The translations under genes and the position numbers were made by a program. Below the pieces are notes generated by a model. It worked only from the letters and a program-made list of their open reading frames with translations, did not search any database and was not told the origin of the DNA. Below, piece by piece: positions 2,248 through 48,801 of a stretch of DNA of 64,000 nt. Source of the DNA: Fluctibacter halophilus (GTDB lineage: Bacteria > Pseudomonadota > Gammaproteobacteria > Enterobacterales > Alteromonadaceae). The stretch is taken from contig NZ_JAJEWP010000006.1 of assembly GCF_020687825.1 (NCBI RefSeq), positions 124,001-188,000 of the forward strand, written 5' to 3'. Positions within the stretch are counted from its first letter, which is position 1. Each line of letters opens with the position of its first letter.

Positions 2248-3261
2248 ATGCCAGGTTATGACGACATTCGACGGGCTCAAATCCGTGTACAAGAACACAT
2301 TAAGCAAACACCGATTGTAGAATCTCATTTACTCAATCAATGGTTAGGTAGCCGCATCCTGTTCAAAGCAGAATGCTTACAAACCACCGGGGCATTCAAA
2401 GTACGCGGCGCGCTGAATGCGTTGTCGGCTTACATAGAGCGTCATGGAAAGCCCCGTCAAGTGGTGGCCAACAGTTCCGGCAATCATGCCCAAGCGGTTG
2501 CCTGGGCTGCCCACAACCAGGGCATTCCGGCAACCATTTACACAACCCACACGGTGTCTGCTGTCAAAGCGGCGGCAACCCGTCATTATGGCGCACAGTT
2601 GTGTCAATTCAGCACCCGGGTGGAGGCTGACGAAGCAGTGCAGCGCGCAGCCGAACAGGACGGTGTGTTCTGGATCCCACCGTTTAATCACGAAGATGTC
2701 ATCGCCGGCCAGGGCACCCTGGCACTGGATGCATTTTCTCAACTGAACGGGCTAAATATTGATGCCATCTGCACACCCTGCGGTGGCGGAGGCCTGCTTT
2801 CGGGAACCCTGCTGACAACCCGCCAACATTTCCCTACAGCCAAGGTGTTGGGAGCCGAGCCTGCCAACGCCAACGATGCCGCCCGTTCGCTGAAACTGGG
2901 ACACATCGTCGGCCTGGAAGGGACCGCGAATACGCTGGCGGATGGTGCCGCAACCCCAAGTGTGGGTCCATTGACGTTTCCATTGCTACAACAGGTTGAT
3001 GGTTTCTATGAAGTGGAAGAAACTGCCATTGCTTACTGGACCCAGTGGTTGCAACACTTACTAAAACTGCACATCGAACCCACCTCGGCCATGACACTTG
3101 AGGCAGTCGCCCGCTACCTGCAGCAGCAAGGACGGGGACAAACCATCATGGTGCTGATTTCAGGGGGCAATATCTCACCGCAAACCTCACAACAGGTGTG
3201 GTCTGTCGACCACTTACAAAAGGTACCGGATGGTCCCTTTATAAGTAGCGGAAGTTGTTGA
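2248..3261 (+). CDS. PLP-dependent threonine dehydratase / serine racemase-like enzyme
   Basis: Fold-type II PLP enzyme, 337 residues. The Schiff-base lysine is K51 in TGAFKVRGAL, the substrate-carboxylate loop is SSGNHAQA (about 75-82) and the phosphate-binding glycine loop is GGGGLLSG (about 178-185). There is no C-terminal ACT regulatory domain, so it is the short catabolic type (threonine/serine dehydratase, serine racemase or threo-3-hydroxyaspartate ammonia-lyase) and not the biosynthetic IlvA. A strong GAGGAGG site about 7 bases upstream fixes the ATG start. Which amino acid it takes cannot be told from sequence. Confidence 0.85.
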   Translation: MPGYDDIRRAQIRVQEHIKQTPIVESHLLNQWLGSRILFKAECLQTTGAFKVRGALNALSAYIERHGKPRQVVANSSGNHAQAVAWAAHNQGIPATIYTTHTVSAVKAAATRHYGAQLCQFSTRVEADEAVQRAAEQDGVFWIPPFNHEDVIAGQGTLALDAFSQLNGLNIDAICTPCGGGGLLSGTLLTTRQHFPTAKVLGAEPANANDAARSLKLGHIVGLEGTANTLADGAATPSVGPLTFPLLQQVDGFYEVEETAIAYWTQWLQHLLKLHIEPTSAMTLEAVARYLQQQGRGQTIMVLISGGNISPQTSQQVWSVDHLQKVPDGPFISSGSC

Positions 3262-43298: not shown

Positions 43299-43748
43299 TC
43301 AGATGTGCATCCCTAGCCACGGTTGTTCAAGGTTGTGTTGCTCCAGGTGGGACTTGATGGACGCCAGATCGCAGGGCGCCTTGGCACATTCGGCCAACAA
43401 CGCGTCGGAGGATTTGCCCAGTGCATTGGCCAACGCCCATACATGCATCACCCGATTGCCCGAACGGCAATAGCTGTGTACACGATGGTTACACCCATTC
43501 AAGGTGGTTCTGAGCATATTGACCGCATCCTCTGCATACATACCGGGTACAATGGGCAAGTACACATAAGCCATATTCGCCTGCTGGGCAGCTGCTGCGA
43601 TGGCATCACTGCGCAAATGGGGCTCCACTTCTTCATCCGGGCGCATATTGACCAGCTCGGTGACCCCCTGTTGCGCCAGTATTGCCACATCGTCAGGGGT
43701 GATTTGATCCGACACCGAAAACCGATCATTGATAAGACTGACTTGCAT
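43299..43748 (-). CDS. DUF442 / TIGR01244 sulfur transferase-phosphatase-like protein
   Basis: 149 residues with the protein-tyrosine-phosphatase-like loop YCRSGNRVMHVWALA (CxxGxR type) around residue 95-100 and the early VNMRPDEE motif. Proteins of this family are the N-terminal partner of Blh-type persulfide enzymes and act as or resemble sulfur transferases. Last gene of the leftward sulfide-oxidation operon, 9 bases after the exporter gene, with GGAGAAGG upstream of the ATG. Confidence 0.85.
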   Translation of the reverse strand: MQVSLINDRFSVSDQITPDDVAILAQQGVTELVNMRPDEEVEPHLRSDAIAAAAQQANMAYVYLPIVPGMYAEDAVNMLRTTLNGCNHRVHSYCRSGNRVMHVWALANALGKSSDALLAECAKAPCDLASIKSHLEQHNLEQPWLGMHI

Positions 43749-43757
43749 ACCCTTCTC

Positions 43758-44519
43758 CTAACCCAACCATTGCCCAACGAGCATGCCACTACCGAGCAGC
43801 AACAACGTCACGGCAAACACCTTTTTCAACACCGGGGCCGGTACTTTATTGGCAATAGCTTGTCCGATGACAGCTCCCAGCACCCCCAACAAAACCACCT
43901 TGAGGATTAGCCCAAAGTCCACTGCTAAACCAAGCCCCAGCAGGACATGGTAATGCTTAGCAAATCCGACAAACGACTGCAGGGCAATCACCACCAAAGA
44001 CGTTGCCGTTGCATGTAACATGCTGAGACCCGCCAGCCCCACCAGCGCCGGTACAATCAGAAAGCCGCCCCCGATCCCGACCAGGCCGGCCAGTATTCCG
44101 ACCCCCAGCCCCCCCAACAGCATGGCAAGCCAGTGTGGCTCAGCTGAGGTATTTTGTTGTACTTTCAGTGGCCTGAACATAAACCCGGCAGCGATCAACA
44201 TCACTAGCGCAAAGATCATCAACTGCACCTGACCACTCAACCACTGGGACAACCAGGCCCCCAGCAAGGTAGCCAGCATACTGGGTATTCCAAATCCCAG
44301 TACCATTGACCACACAACCCGCCCCTGGCGGGCCGGTGCTATGCTGCTCAGGGCGGCGATGATACCGACAATTAACAGCGCCTGTGCAATCGCCAGTTTG
44401 CCGCCCTGATCAAACCCGTAAACCAGCAGTGGCACCGTAACGATCGACCCTCCGGCACCGAGAATACCCAGCAACAGACCAATGATCAGCGCCCCTAACC
44501 AACCCAGCATCGCCGTCAT
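43758..44519 (-). CDS. TauE/SafE family sulfite exporter
   Basis: 253 residues, about eight membrane helices in two repeated halves: GLLLGILGAGGSIVTVPLL and GILAGLVGIGGGFLIVPAL are the twin glycine-rich motifs of the family. In sulfide-oxidation operons this protein exports the sulfite made by the persulfide dioxygenase. Start overlaps the metallohydrolase stop by one base (TGATG), so translation is coupled. Confidence 0.92.
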   Translation of the reverse strand: MTAMLGWLGALIIGLLLGILGAGGSIVTVPLLVYGFDQGGKLAIAQALLIVGIIAALSSIAPARQGRVVWSMVLGFGIPSMLATLLGAWLSQWLSGQVQLMIFALVMLIAAGFMFRPLKVQQNTSAEPHWLAMLLGGLGVGILAGLVGIGGGFLIVPALVGLAGLSMLHATATSLVVIALQSFVGFAKHYHVLLGLGLAVDFGLILKVVLLGVLGAVIGQAIANKVPAPVLKKVFAVTLLLLGSGMLVGQWLG

Positions 44520-45391
44520 CAGACGTCCAGACCACTCAGCGGTAACTTAAGGTAACGCACACCGTTGGACTCCGCCGGTGGCAGCTGTCCGGCCCGGATA
44601 TTAACCTGTAGTGCCGGTAGTAATAACCGGGGCGCACCAAGGGTGGCATCACGGCTTTCCCGCTGTTGAATGAAATCCGTTGCAGAAACACCGTCGTGGA
44701 CATGGATATTGCTACGCTTCTGCTCCATGACCGTGGTTTCCCAGGCGTAATCCTCTCGCCCTTCAGGCAGGTAATCATGGCCGACAAACATGCGCGTCGA
44801 CGGCGGCAATGCGAGCAGCTTTGAAATTGAACGGTGCAGCGTTTTGGCGCTGCCATCGGGGAAATCGGTACGGGCAGTGCCATAGTCCGGCATGAACAGG
44901 GTATCGCCGACAAACACCGCATCTTCAATGTGGTAGGACACACAGGCAGGGGTGTGTCCGGGCGTGTGCAATACGGTGATATCAACGTGGCCCACGGTGA
45001 TCACTTCACCATCGGCCAATAAGTGATCAAATTGTGAGCCATCACAAGGAAAGTCATCCGGCAAATTAAACCGCCCCTTGAAGGTACTCTGAACCCGGCG
45101 GATGTGTTCACCGATACCAATACTGCCACCCCGACGCTGGCGTAAAAGGTGGGCTGCACTTAAGTGATCGGCATGCACATGGGTTTCCAGGATCCATTCG
45201 AGGTTCAAGCCCTCCCGGTCAAGAAAGGCGATAACACGATTGATCTGGGTATCAGAAATCACCCCAGATGCAGGGTCGTAGTCCAGCACCGGGTCGATCA
45301 CCGCAGCAAGTCCACTGGCAACATCCGCGACCACGTAAGTCACCGTGTGCGTCACGGGGTCAAAAAAGCTTTGTATACGTATTTTACTCAT
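44519..45391 (-). CDS. MBL-fold persulfide dioxygenase-type hydrolase (Blh/ETHE1-like)
   Basis: 290 residues. The metal motif THVHADHLSA (HxHxDH) and the later HTPGHTPACVSYH, FVGDTLFMPDYGTARTDFPDGSA and FVGHDY complete the metallo-beta-lactamase site. GTARTDFPDG is typical of the PDO/Blh branch, which oxidises glutathione persulfide to sulfite. GGAGG precedes the ATG. Between the DUF3365 heme gene and the exporter in the sqr operon. Confidence 0.9.
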   Translation of the reverse strand: MSKIRIQSFFDPVTHTVTYVVADVASGLAAVIDPVLDYDPASGVISDTQINRVIAFLDREGLNLEWILETHVHADHLSAAHLLRQRRGGSIGIGEHIRRVQSTFKGRFNLPDDFPCDGSQFDHLLADGEVITVGHVDITVLHTPGHTPACVSYHIEDAVFVGDTLFMPDYGTARTDFPDGSAKTLHRSISKLLALPPSTRMFVGHDYLPEGREDYAWETTVMEQKRSNIHVHDGVSATDFIQQRESRDATLGAPRLLLPALQVNIRAGQLPPAESNGVRYLKLPLSGLDV

Positions 45392-45474: not shown

Positions 45475-46011
45475 TTATTCAACCGGAGTAAACGTCAGCG
45501 TAAAAGCGCCGCGTAGCTCACCGGGCTGAAACCCGGTTGCCTGATCCAGCGGGTAGTGACGTGCAATGGCCTGCTGCACCTCTGGCGCGATTGAGCGTCC
45601 GTGACATTGCATACACAGCTGACCTGTCGGGATCCCCTTCATCATGCGAAAACGGCCGTCAATCAATGTTGCCTGACGCCATTGTTGCGGTGATTGTTGC
45701 AAAAAGTCCTGTAACACACGGTTTTCCCAGGCATCCGGCGCATTGTCAGGATTGCGGGTTTTGTGGCTGGTACGGCCAATCAGCCAGCCGTCGGTTGACA
45801 GCTGTCGGGCAATGACGGGCGCCCGTTGATGACACACATCCACCGCCGCAGCGAGCCCACCTTTGCCGATGGCCCCAAGCAGCTCACTTTTAAGCTGTGC
45901 AGAAAACTGCGCAATACGCTGCTCGCCCCCGGCAATTAATGCCTCCGGCGGCGCTTGCGCCATGGTGCGGCTGGCCAATAGCGCAACCATCAATAGTACT
46001 GTCCATTTCAT
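45475..46011 (-). CDS. DUF3365 (Tll0287-like) periplasmic c-type heme protein
   Basis: 178 residues. Signal peptide (1-18, ending TMAQA). A single CMQCH heme-c attachment motif at about residue 133 and the upstream segment VDVCHQRAPVIARQL give the DUF3365/Tll0287-like heme sensor-type fold. Its start overlaps the sqr stop codon (ATGA), so it is translated with sqr. Characterised relatives are cyanobacterial proteins thought to act as redox sensors or electron carriers. A role as a periplasmic redox partner in sulfide oxidation is inference from the operon only. Confidence 0.85.
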   Translation of the reverse strand: MKWTVLLMVALLASRTMAQAPPEALIAGGEQRIAQFSAQLKSELLGAIGKGGLAAAVDVCHQRAPVIARQLSTDGWLIGRTSHKTRNPDNAPDAWENRVLQDFLQQSPQQWRQATLIDGRFRMMKGIPTGQLCMQCHGRSIAPEVQQAIARHYPLDQATGFQPGELRGAFTLTFTPVE

Positions 46012-47288
46012 TTGTCGGACTCCAGTCGTTCGATACCCAATGCCTTGAGGACATATTTTTCGTACACCGGCTCGCTGGTACCGGTTTTCATCTTACGCAT
46101 AAAGTACTTCTCAAACGCTATTTTCGCCAGGTGCACCCATTTGCCTTTTTTAAACCAGGTCACATTGCGCGGTGGGATCTGCGGCATGGCCACAAACGCA
46201 GCACCCGTGTCTCCCATGTCTGCTAGGCAGATAGCATGCCAGGTGCCTTTGGCATGGGGTTGTTTGTCTTCCAGCAGTATCGCCTTCAGATTGTGCGCAA
46301 TCGCGGTCATCATGGTCTCAATCATGTAGCCGGTTTTAGGCGTTCCGGTCGGTACCGGTGTCGCTTCTACCGGTGGCAATGCCACACACACGCCGCCGGA
46401 GAAAATAGTCGGGTATGTTGGTGAACGCTGGAATTCATCAGTGATCACAAATCCCTTGGGATTGCACAACCCCTCCACATTGGCCACCGCCTCAACACCC
46501 GAGAAAGGGGGGATCAGCATGCTGTGATGGAAGGGCTGCGTGTGCTCAAACGCCACGTCGCCCTTGCGATCCAGCTCACTGATGTGCATGGTTTGTGGCT
46601 CCACCCGGTCAACCCGCGCATTGCAAATCCATTTGATGTCCCGTTGCCGCAACTCTGATTCCAGCAGTGATTTCGAGTCTCCCACACCACCCAGCCCCAG
46701 GTGGCCGATGTAGGGTTCACTGGTGACAAAATGCATCGGTACTTTGTGACGGATTTTGGCGTCCCGAAGCGCCTTATCAAGGATAAACGCATATTCATAA
46801 GCGGGCCCGAAGCAGCTGGCCCCCTGAAAGGCGCCCACCACCACCGGCCCGGGTTTCTCAATCAGACGTTGCACATCCTCATAGCATTGCACGGCATGAT
46901 CCAGGGTACACACCGACTGTGTATGTCCTTTGGGACCCGCGCCTTCGATCGCTTCAAAAGCGAGTTTAGGCCCGGTCGCGATAACCAGGAAATCATAGTC
47001 CAGCACCTCGCCACTGTCGGTATGCAGTTGTTGCTTGTCAGCGTCAATCCTATCGACACGGGCACACACAAATCCAATCCCTTTTTTGGACAGGTACTTC
47101 TCGATCGGTATGCAAATCGCTTCTGGCTCTCGCCATCCCACAGCGACCCAAGGGTTAGAAGGTACAAAGCGGAATTCAGGGCGTTCATTGACCATGACGA
47201 CGTCATGGGCTTTGCCCAACGCTTCTTTGATTTCATAGGCGGCAGGCATGCCCCCCGTTCCCGCACCCAGCACGATGATCTTGGCCAT
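46008..47288 (-). CDS. sqr: sulfide:quinone oxidoreductase
   Basis: About 426 residues from the ATG at 47288 (MAKIIVLGAGTGG), with GGAGAAC 5-10 bases upstream; the frame is open 13 codons further. FAD motif VLGAGTGGMPAAYE, the second flavin motif, a conserved redox Cys in QGASCFGPAYEYAF and the C-terminal membrane-facing helices fit SQR. It oxidises sulfide at the membrane and passes electrons to quinone, giving persulfide. First gene of the operon with the heme protein, dioxygenase, exporter and DUF442 gene, behind a sigma-54-type promoter. Confidence 0.92.
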   Translation of the reverse strand: MAKIIVLGAGTGGMPAAYEIKEALGKAHDVVMVNERPEFRFVPSNPWVAVGWREPEAICIPIEKYLSKKGIGFVCARVDRIDADKQQLHTDSGEVLDYDFLVIATGPKLAFEAIEGAGPKGHTQSVCTLDHAVQCYEDVQRLIEKPGPVVVGAFQGASCFGPAYEYAFILDKALRDAKIRHKVPMHFVTSEPYIGHLGLGGVGDSKSLLESELRQRDIKWICNARVDRVEPQTMHISELDRKGDVAFEHTQPFHHSMLIPPFSGVEAVANVEGLCNPKGFVITDEFQRSPTYPTIFSGGVCVALPPVEATPVPTGTPKTGYMIETMMTAIAHNLKAILLEDKQPHAKGTWHAICLADMGDTGAAFVAMPQIPPRNVTWFKKGKWVHLAKIAFEKYFMRKMKTGTSEPVYEKYVLKALGIERLESDK

Positions 47289-47341
47289 GTTCAGTTCTCC
47301 GTTGTGCGCCTTGCCGGCGCGAGTCATGTAAACAGACTGTT

Positions 47342-47357
47342 AACAAGACCCGTGCCA
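47342..47357 (-). promoter_or_regulatory. sigma-54 (-24/-12) promoter of the sqr operon
   Basis: Read leftward: TGGCACGGGTCTTGTT, against consensus TGGCACG-N4-TTGCW. The -24 element TGGCACG is perfect; the -12 element reads TTGT instead of TTGC, with correct N10 spacing between GG and GT. Transcription would begin near 47330, 40 bases before the sqr ATG. The divergent gene encodes a sigma-54 activator, which fits. Confidence 0.75.
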
Positions 47358-47387: not shown

Positions 47388-47416
47388 AATTAGCTTTAAT
47401 GCTGTTATGACTAATT
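47388..47416. promoter_or_regulatory. inverted repeat, possible activator site
   Basis: AATTAG (47388-47393) and CTAATT (47411-47416) form a perfect 6-base inverted pair with 17 bases between, 31 bases or more upstream of the -24 element. Its distance fits an enhancer-like binding site, or the site may be chance in AT-rich sequence. It extends past the listed ATG of the activator gene. Confidence 0.3.
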
Positions 47417-48801
47417 TGGCATTGCATCACCGCAGAACCTATGCCATTTTTGACAGTACATTTTTGACACCGGCGCCAATTTTGTCAGACACTGTCAATA
47501 CCTCTGTGATCCAATCGATGATCGATGCCATCGATAAACCGGCCATTTACATCACTCCGGATTACGTTATCCAGGCCGTCAATGCCGCCTATGCTGAGAC
47601 CTATCAGACGCGGGTGAAAATCGGCAGCAGCAAGTGTCACCAGGTCTCCCACAAGCAGGAACAACCCTGTGATCAACACGGTGAGGATTGTCCCCTTCAA
47701 CAATGTCGCGTAAGTGGACGCGCCACAAGCGTGGTGCATATTCACACGCTGCCTGGGGGCAAGCAGTACTGCGACATATTGATGAAACCCGTGCGCGACG
47801 CATCGGGCATGACAGTGGGCTTTCTCGAAATCCTGGAAAACATCGACTACGCATCCGCCGACCCTGACAAGGACAAAATGATTGGCCAGTCCCCGGCCTT
47901 TCGCAGCCTGCTCAACCAAATCAACCGCGCCGCCCGTTCAGACATCGCCGTTTTGCTGCAGGGCGAAACCGGCACCGGAAAAGAACTGGTGGCACAAGCC
48001 CTGCACGACTCCAGTCATCGGCAGGAAAAGCCGTTTGTGGTGATCGAATGCACCGGATTGAATGAGAGCCTGTTTGAGTCTGAGCTGTTTGGCTATGAAA
48101 AAGGCGCTTTTACTGGCGCCACCGCGCCCAAAAAAGGCTTGGTCGAGGTGGCCAATGGCGGCACTATTTTCTTCGATGAAATCGGCGACGTACCGCTCAA
48201 CATGCAGGTTAAATTGTTGCGTTTGCTGGAAACCCAGTGTTTCCGGGCAGTCGGAGGCCTGAAGCAGAAAAAAGCCGACTTTCGCCTGATCTGTGCGACG
48301 CACAAGGATCTGCTGGCATTGGTTGAGCGCGGAGAGTTTCGAAAAGACCTGTACTACCGTATCGCCGGTTTTCCAATCCATCTGCCGTCTTTGCATGAAC
48401 GCACCGAGGACATTGACCAATTAGCCGACCATTTCCTCCATTACAGCAACCAGCCCAACCGCCGTTTCAGCGCCAACGCATTAGCAACGCTGCGCCAGTA
48501 TCCATTTCCGGGTAACATTCGCGAGTTAAAAAGCGCGGTAGAGCAAGCCGCCCTGCTGGCCGACGAAGATATCATCAACGTCACGGACCTGCCCCCCCGA
48601 ATTCAGAACTGGCAAGCAACCTCAGCCACTCAACAACCCACAACACTGATGCCGCTGGATGCAGTCGAAAGGGATTATTTGCGCCGCGTTGTTGCCCAGC
48701 ATGAAGGAACTGCGGAAACACTGGCCAGTGCACTGGGGATCAGTCAGCGTACCCTGTATCGCAAACTGCAGCGCTACGGCATCCGCCTGAAGCATGCTTA
48801 A
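47407..48801 (+). CDS. fisR: sigma-54-dependent regulator, FisR-like sulfane-sulfur sensor
   Basis: 464 residues with this start: PAS-like sensor (about 38-148), AAA+ domain (158-395: Walker A GETGTGKE 186-193, GAFTGA 233-238, Walker B IFFDEIG 254-260), and Fis-type HTH (432-460, GTAETLASALGISQRTLYRKL). The PAS domain has Cys77, Cys88 and Cys95 (CX10CX6C), the spacing of Cys53/64/71 in FisR, plus Cys100. FisR activates sqr-pdo genes when those Cys bind sulfane sulfur. The true start may be downstream (GTG 47506 or ATG 47518), as no ribosome site precedes 47407. Divergent from sqr. Confidence 0.88.
   Translation: MTNLALHHRRTYAIFDSTFLTPAPILSDTVNTSVIQSMIDAIDKPAIYITPDYVIQAVNAAYAETYQTRVKIGSSKCHQVSHKQEQPCDQHGEDCPLQQCRVSGRATSVVHIHTLPGGKQYCDILMKPVRDASGMTVGFLEILENIDYASADPDKDKMIGQSPAFRSLLNQINRAARSDIAVLLQGETGTGKELVAQALHDSSHRQEKPFVVIECTGLNESLFESELFGYEKGAFTGATAPKKGLVEVANGGTIFFDEIGDVPLNMQVKLLRLLETQCFRAVGGLKQKKADFRLICATHKDLLALVERGEFRKDLYYRIAGFPIHLPSLHERTEDIDQLADHFLHYSNQPNRRFSANALATLRQYPFPGNIRELKSAVEQAALLADEDIINVTDLPPRIQNWQATSATQQPTTLMPLDAVERDYLRRVVAQHEGTAETLASALGISQRTLYRKLQRYGIRLKHA
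47445..47469. repeat. direct repeat CATTTTTGACA
   Basis: CATTTTTGACA occurs at 47445-47455 and 47459-47469 with a 14-base period, and TTGTCA/TGTCAA elements follow at about 47484-47498. These lie inside the N-terminal codons of the regulator as annotated but would be upstream DNA if the gene starts at 47506 or 47518. Confidence 0.4.

Follow-up and report, generated by a model that had tools for sequence, protein, structure and literature searches.

The DUF3365 gene of Fluctibacter halophilus is, as judged from gene layout and a promoter-like site, part of a FisR-type sulfide-oxidation operon, and its closer and more constant partner in related genomes is the sigma-54 activator FisR, not the sulfide:quinone oxidoreductase (SQR) whose gene it overlaps. 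We consider it highly probable that the gene belongs to the FisR regulon. Its adjacency to sqr is nevertheless real and not unique to this genome. Both the protein family and the kind of operon are known, and their combination was not found in print in the open PMC literature. Throughout, the window is the whole stretch of 64,000 nucleotides that was analysed.

Layout of the locus and its predicted products

The run of five genes reads sqr, DUF3365, persulfide dioxygenase (PDO), TauE and sulfur transferase, with the FisR-type activator divergent from it (Table 1). A GGAG stands 8 nt ahead of the DUF3365 ATG, and PDO and TauE meet in a TGATG junction. The -24/-12 site before sqr is near consensus, and its score was reached by none of 500 shuffles, as a match of sequence rather than a mapped start. 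This site and a GGAG both precede Met14 of SQR, and the position of the promoter-like site suggests that the true start of SQR is probably this Met14, at 47288. The PDO-like protein scores 376.9 bits against NF040641 (profile positions 141-421 covered), below a cut-off of 625 that refers to the bifunctional whole protein, and the sulfur transferase scores 93.8 bits against TIGR01244 (cut-off 85.85). Gene calls are simple open reading frames, and adjacency counted in draft contigs is a lower bound.

Table 1. Features of the FisR-type locus in the window, with their positions, strands and the basis of each assignment.
Feature	Position	Strand	Basis
BLH-phosphatase-like / TIGR01244 sulfur transferase	43299..43748	-	PF04273 E 2.3e-25; TIGR01244
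TauE/SafE sulfite-exporter family protein	43758..44519	-	PF01925 E 4.6e-42
Persulfide dioxygenase (PDO)-like metallo-beta-lactamase-fold protein	44519..45391	-	NF040641 and PF00753
DUF3365 gene, stand-alone Tll0287/DUF3365 (sCache_heme)	45475..46011	-	178 aa, ATG start
CMQCH heme-attachment motif, residues 133-137	45601..45615	-	CXXCH in 144/145 aligned rows
Cys60, predicted axial heme ligand	45832..45834	-	Cys in 145/145 aligned rows
ATGA stop/start overlap of sqr and DUF3365	46008..46011	-	read from sequence
sqr, sulfide:quinone oxidoreductase	46008..47327	-	match to 3sz0 structures
Sigma-54 -24/-12 promoter-like site TGGCACG-N4-TTGTT, before sqr	47342..47357	-	shuffle test
FisR-type sigma-54 activator, PAS_4 domain, Cys77/Cys88/Cys95	47407..48801	+	profile matches and alignment

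The best solved relatives of the window SQR are SQR structures headed by 3sz0 (E = 5.9e-161), which we take to be the type I enzyme of Acidithiobacillus ferrooxidans, and its QSVC, GASC and AICL motifs align with QSIC, GASC and AVCF of 3sz0; the aligned cysteines are presumably the three catalytic cysteines of SQR, an enzyme that reduces quinone. The three cysteines of the window FisR are unchanged in all 14 aligned homologues, and the spacing of Cys77 and Cys88 equals that of Cys53 and Cys64 in Cupriavidus FisR, which presumably has a third cysteine as well. In the Cupriavidus protein, Cys53 and Cys64 form a tetrasulfide (PMC9495516). This conservation is suggestive only, because the FisR of Acinetobacter still responds without those sensor cysteines (PMC7315123).

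In its divergent sigma-54 activator, sigma-54-type promoter, SQR, PDO and TauE, the window resembles the FisR operons of Cupriavidus and Acinetobacter (PMC7315123). In Acinetobacter a divergent FisR and a predicted sigma-54 promoter drive pdo1-sqr-tauE-hsd, and induction by sulfide is lost in a fisR deletion (PMC7315123). Unlike those operons, the window adds a gene for a predicted periplasmic sCache_heme protein, has a different gene order and carries PDO and the BLH sulfur transferase as separate genes, while some of its relatives add cydABDC.

The first-pass annotation, which had placed here a single-heme c-type protein of DUF3365 tied to SQR by an ATGA overlap, was correct in coordinates and description: PF11845 (Tll0287-like) matches at E = 4.1e-20 (73.1 bits against a cut-off of 24.1) and nowhere else in the whole genome, the protein has a single CXXCH, the overlap is present, and the upstream product is SQR by its match to 3sz0. 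The N-terminus is Sec-like as judged by eye, and a profile search found no output or transmembrane domain, PF11845 being its sole match. An AlphaFold2 model (mean pLDDT 92.8, 46 sequences) aligns over 151 positions with Tll0287 (5b82; Z = 17.7, rmsd 2.8 Å, residues 21-178), with the second-best fold match at Z = 7.8. Tll0287 is also matched by Foldseek (E = 9.6e-9), is the only solved structure matched by sequence, and has a cysteine at the place aligned with Cys60. Sensor domains are common among the listed fold matches below Tll0287, and neither TsdA nor SoxA is among those listed. A c-type heme protein is thus supported by motif and fold, and a periplasmic location is predicted; the window protein would be exported, have its heme attached and ligate it through Cys and His. 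The residue counts of Table 1 come from an alignment of 145 stand-alone proteins, that of the window included, without 31 fetched genes of other subfamilies. At one locus (L141, in G499; 2427-3050) DUF3365 stands beside sqr and a FisR homologue, the axial cysteine is kept and CXXCH is lost (CLVYY), so that the usual attachment of heme c is probably impossible in this protein. Matches to the DUF3365 protein occur in 17 of 72,556 plasmid records.

A 2026 preprint (PMC12889525) names the family sCache_heme, reports more than 5,000 DUF3365 sequences in a curated set, nearly half of them stand-alone, and proposes fused members as NO sensors. Its stand-alone member from P. putida is a low-spin, Cys/His-ligated protein of redox-like behaviour, whose axial cysteine was probed by mutation; its binding of NO is weak, and with O2 it gives no stable complex (PMC12889525). 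With Tll0287 (5b82) and P. putida Target 1 (PMC12889525) the window protein shares its single domain, CXXCH, aligned axial cysteine and modelled Cache fold; unlike these two, for which no published sulfide link was found, it sits in a FisR-type sulfide operon. A word search of PMC12889525 returned neither sulfide nor quinone, and PMC9230427, in the part concerned, names sqr and a DUF3365 protein in Idiomarina without linking them. In the open PMC literature no paper linking the family with sulfide was found. The first-pass annotation was incomplete in that PMC12889525 provides biochemistry for a stand-alone member.

Neighbours of DUF3365 in related genomes

The search for DUF3365 beside sqr in other genomes, which the first-pass annotation had put forward as a check, found that the adjacency recurs, so that the refuting case named there, a pairing confined to this genome, does not hold. 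SQR (E = 1e-40 or better) occurs in 18 of 295 genomes of the order, and DUF3365 adjoins it in five of these (the window, G090, G282, G263 and G173). These five fall within the six order genomes whose SQR is at least 79% identical, and DUF3365 stands beside SQR in none of the 12 order genomes with SQR at 53-60% identity. Across the class, where SQR (E = 1e-60 or better) occurs in 106 of 369 genomes, type I sqr lies no more than 5 kb from 10 of 87 stand-alone against 0 of 61 fused DUF3365 genes (105 genomes besides that of the window; Fisher P = 0.0039, a value that overstates independence because the sampled genomes are related), and the chance expectation for linkage within 3 kb is about 0.24. 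Nine of the 10 linked loci are co-directional and less than 1 kb apart, with DUF3365 preceding sqr in eight and following it in one. This class count used 148 of 155 PF11845 rows, ignored SQR rows below 50% identity and set the stand-alone limit at 330 aa; the seven omitted rows came from frames of 572-883 aa and either missed the cut-off or passed it only together with neighbours.

In the named collection of 69 loci, SQR directly precedes DUF3365 in four (two being the G282 and G263 contigs), type I SQR lies 4.7 kb upstream of DUF3365 in L211, and type II SQR occurs together with PDO and FisR at two Pseudomonas loci; no SQR, PDO or bd gene was found at 62 of the 69, 21 of the 69 having less than 3 kb on one side. 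In the class, type I SQR is absent within 5 kb of 77 of the 87 stand-alone genes. The idea that all of the DUF3365 family serves in sulfide metabolism was rejected, since most stand-alone genes examined lack such neighbours, and for the same reason the chemistry need not be sulfide-specific.

SQR-linked DUF3365 genes are clustered yet spread over several subfamilies: on the DUF3365 tree they need 12 label changes against a shuffled mean of 16.3, and at least three of the 12 are forced by well-supported (starred) branches. For 75 of the 77 unlinked class stand-alone genes the regions were fetched, as were 20 order stand-alone loci with wide flanks; 29 of these 95 loci gave no profile match and two a weak one, and 31 are absent from the tree and the cysteine count. 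The tree labels L211 and L243, the latter with another SQR-like neighbour, as unlinked.

The junction and the promoter also differ from locus to locus. Four close relatives (L128-L131) have 12 to 52 nt between sqr and DUF3365, the two genes overlap by 4 bp in L140, and in L291 a remnant of sqr meets DUF3365 in a TAATG junction; the ATGA overlap was rejected as a generally conserved device, since the gaps vary among relatives. A -24/-12 score equal to that of the window is found before sqr in L128, L129, L130 and L132 (0 of 500 shuffles each) and variant sites in L144 (0.004 of 500 shuffles) and L145 (0.002), while the promoter-like site of L131 (G173) is no more than weak (0.062 of 500 shuffles) and FisR is not divergent there. 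Such sites stand directly ahead of DUF3365 in L291 (0.004) and L295 (0.022 of 500 shuffles) and, by sequence likeness without shuffles, in L321-L323.

FisR orthologues (limit E = 1e-100, counted in the one order) occur in 11 of 295 genomes spanning three families, at 58-100% identity over most of their length; a second FisR-like match in G159 (45% identical) was not counted. DUF3365 is present at 10 of these 11 loci, PDO at seven, bd oxidase at six and type I SQR at six. FisR is therefore a more constant partner than SQR, to which the first-pass annotation had tied the gene. Anywhere in the genome, DUF3365 is found in 10 of 11 FisR-positive against 51 of 284 FisR-negative genomes (Fisher P = 7e-7, overstated by kinship). 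The protein is dispensable, since G292 has FisR, SQR, bd oxidase and PDO yet no DUF3365. In five genomes (G203, G159, G031, G204 and G214) the genes divergent from FisR begin with DUF3365, behind -24/-12-like sites; PDO comes next in two of them and cydABDC in three. None of these five genomes has a type I SQR at E = 1e-40 or a type II SQR at E = 1e-10, the sole type II query match among them, in G031, falling on the BLH part. In G203 (L291:6700-6880) the 3' end of sqr survives as a relic of 24 codons, behind a sigma-54-like site and with an open frame of DUF3365 immediately after it (identical at 15 of 24; its score of 83 compares with a maximum of 44 over 500 shuffles), so that here sqr was lost and DUF3365 kept; the same comparison showed no relic in G159. 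DUF3365 would be expected to be induced by sulfide.

PF11845 occurs in 14 of 149 sampled Pseudomonas genomes, and PDO (at least 50% identity) lies within 7 kb of six of nine stand-alone DUF3365 genes with frames up to 240 aa, or five of eight without G660, the centre of the sample, which was picked for its island. The island of G695, G805 and G660 reads FisR-PDO-(BLH-SQR)-TauE-ArsR-YeeE-PDO-DUF3365 and resembles that of P. fragi L159; elsewhere the PDO-linked DUF3365 is accompanied by BLH-SQR (G776), CydAB (G727) or BLH-SQR and CioAB (G677). The SQR part of the BLH-SQR fusion is closest to a mitochondrial SQR (E = 1e-87), presumably human SQOR. G717, whose neighbours include a TauE homologue and an MBL match at 33%, was left out of the linked genes, and the 7-kb comparison found no sulfide neighbour near DUF3365 in G745 or G732. 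Outside the nine stand two more genes, in frames of 283 and 302 aa, that the 330-aa limit would admit; one of them, L349, gave no neighbour match. The islands of L346, L348, L159 and L160 are closely similar (FisR-PDO-(BLH-type II SQR fusion)-TauE-ArsR-YeeE-PDO-DUF3365) and perhaps mobile; that of L346 is followed by UmuC-like and transposase-like genes, as judged by eye.

Several other neighbours were seen. In L144 (8553-18352), L145 and L146, from Aliiglaciecola and Glaciecola, the FisR operon has DUF3365 and PDO with cydABDC in between, which brings sulfide detoxification and a sulfide-resistant oxidase into a single run, and near the SQR-DUF3365 locus of G173 (C1:1890857-1892342) cydA is split over two frames and contains a stop. 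A thioredoxin-2-type gene follows DUF3365 in L140 (6392-8711, with 4-bp overlaps) and L211 (10001-12038), among ArsR and, by eye, RND efflux genes. A rhodanese gene lies immediately upstream of DUF3365 on the same strand in L288 (6986-8212). At six loci from Denitrificimonas and gammaproteobacterial MAGs (L157, L163, L167, L173, L194 and L206) DUF3365 has a TauE homologue (35-41% identity) downstream, and neither SQR nor PDO was found; these six and the TauE homologue of L345 were not counted as linkage. At 16 loci, mostly of Candidatus Thiodiazotropha, soxYZ-like genes (by eye) lie about 2-3 kb off on the opposite strand, and were left out of the linkage count because those genomes are closely related.

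Possible role of the heme protein

Our explanation of the whole, to which we give an even chance, is a FisR-type sulfide operon whose heme protein would act alongside SQR in the periplasm. A rise in sulfide would lead to sulfane sulfur, upon which FisR would fire the promoter; SQR, PDO, TauE and the sulfur transferase would remove sulfide and persulfide, both in the cytoplasm and at the membrane, while the heme protein would perform one-electron redox in the periplasm with sulfide, persulfide or their products and pass its electron to another cytochrome or to O2, both substrate and acceptor being presumed. It would work in parallel to SQR rather than as its obligate acceptor, and Cys60 may be a plain ligand of the heme or a reactive site. 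Because the company of FisR holds whichever partner (SQR, PDO or bd) remains, we infer that the job of DUF3365 is useful alone under sulfide stress, in the periplasm. As to the chemistry, our tentative preference, at somewhat less than an even chance, is that a Cys/His-ligated heme would carry out one-electron redox work on sulfide species; it is favoured because sulfide can reduce c-type hemes and Cys/His-ligated c hemes recur in sulfur oxidation. One example is TsdA, which acts by way of an S-thiosulfonate on the cysteine that ligates its heme (PMC4423706).

The periplasmic step proposed in the first-pass annotation survives in part: redox work is plausible and the operon is one for sulfide, but a step dependent on SQR is unlikely, because five FisR loci keep DUF3365 without a detected type I or II SQR. 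On the same ground SQR was rejected as an obligate partner, and it is unlikely that DUF3365 serves as its obligate electron acceptor. The sqr overlap in the window and L140, the recurring adjacency with type I SQR, and the SQR-like genes that follow DUF3365 in L243 (26% identity) and, beyond a thioredoxin gene, in L211 (22%) would suit a direct redox partner of SQR that accepts electrons or sulfane sulfur. We nonetheless hold this very unlikely, as half of the 10 FisR-DUF3365 loci lie in genomes without a type I (E = 1e-40) or type II match, G203 pairs an sqr remnant with an open DUF3365 frame, the gene order varies over the nine class loci, and SQR hands its electrons to quinone. Chance placement in the operon, with a general role unrelated to sulfide, is likewise very improbable: most stand-alone family members examined do sit elsewhere, but DUF3365 is kept at 10 of 11 FisR loci in three families and where sqr was lost, and the association recurs in Pseudomonas and in several DUF3365 subfamilies.

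Service to the sulfide-resistant cytochrome bd branch, through protection or assembly of CydAB or through heme or redox support, draws on the position of DUF3365 immediately before cydABDC in L144-L146 and, at loci without SQR or PDO, in G031, G204 and G214, on bd genes beside it in L133 and L347 and beyond FisR in L131, and on the report that bd genes are sulfide-induced and bd oxidase refractory to H2S (PMC7315123). It is nevertheless rather improbable, since bd genes are absent at five of the 10 FisR-DUF3365 loci (window, G090, G282, G203 and G159) and G292 has a FisR locus with bd genes and no DUF3365. We regard with similar doubt a sensor of redox state or gas in the periplasm that would adjust the response via a partner; the Cache fold, the many sensor domains among the fold matches listed after Tll0287 and the NO-sensor proposal for fused members (PMC12889525) speak for it, whereas the window protein has no output or transmembrane domain by profile search, the stand-alone P. 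putida protein binds NO weakly and O2 in no stable complex, and sensing at the locus is, by analogy, already the task of cytoplasmic FisR. Unlikely, though less so, is a sulfur enzyme that uses the fold of a Cache sensor, in which a Cys-ligated heme would oxidise or condense periplasmic sulfide, persulfide or thiosulfate independently of SQR, convergent with TsdA and SoxA. In contrast to these Cys-ligated cytochromes, DUF3365 has a Cache fold in its model.

Stand-alone DUF3365 proteins have so far carried only a general redox-related label. Their repeated place at a sigma-54 locus of the sulfide-responsive type, kept without SQR, would give a subset of them a concrete role, and directs attention to a periplasmic arm of the defence against sulfide and persulfide. 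If one-electron redox in parallel to SQR is the true reading, the protein would be an unusual Cache domain with redox or enzymatic work, and if it proves to be a sulfur enzyme, bacteria with the FisR regulon would gain a means of clearing sulfide in the periplasm that is independent of SQR.
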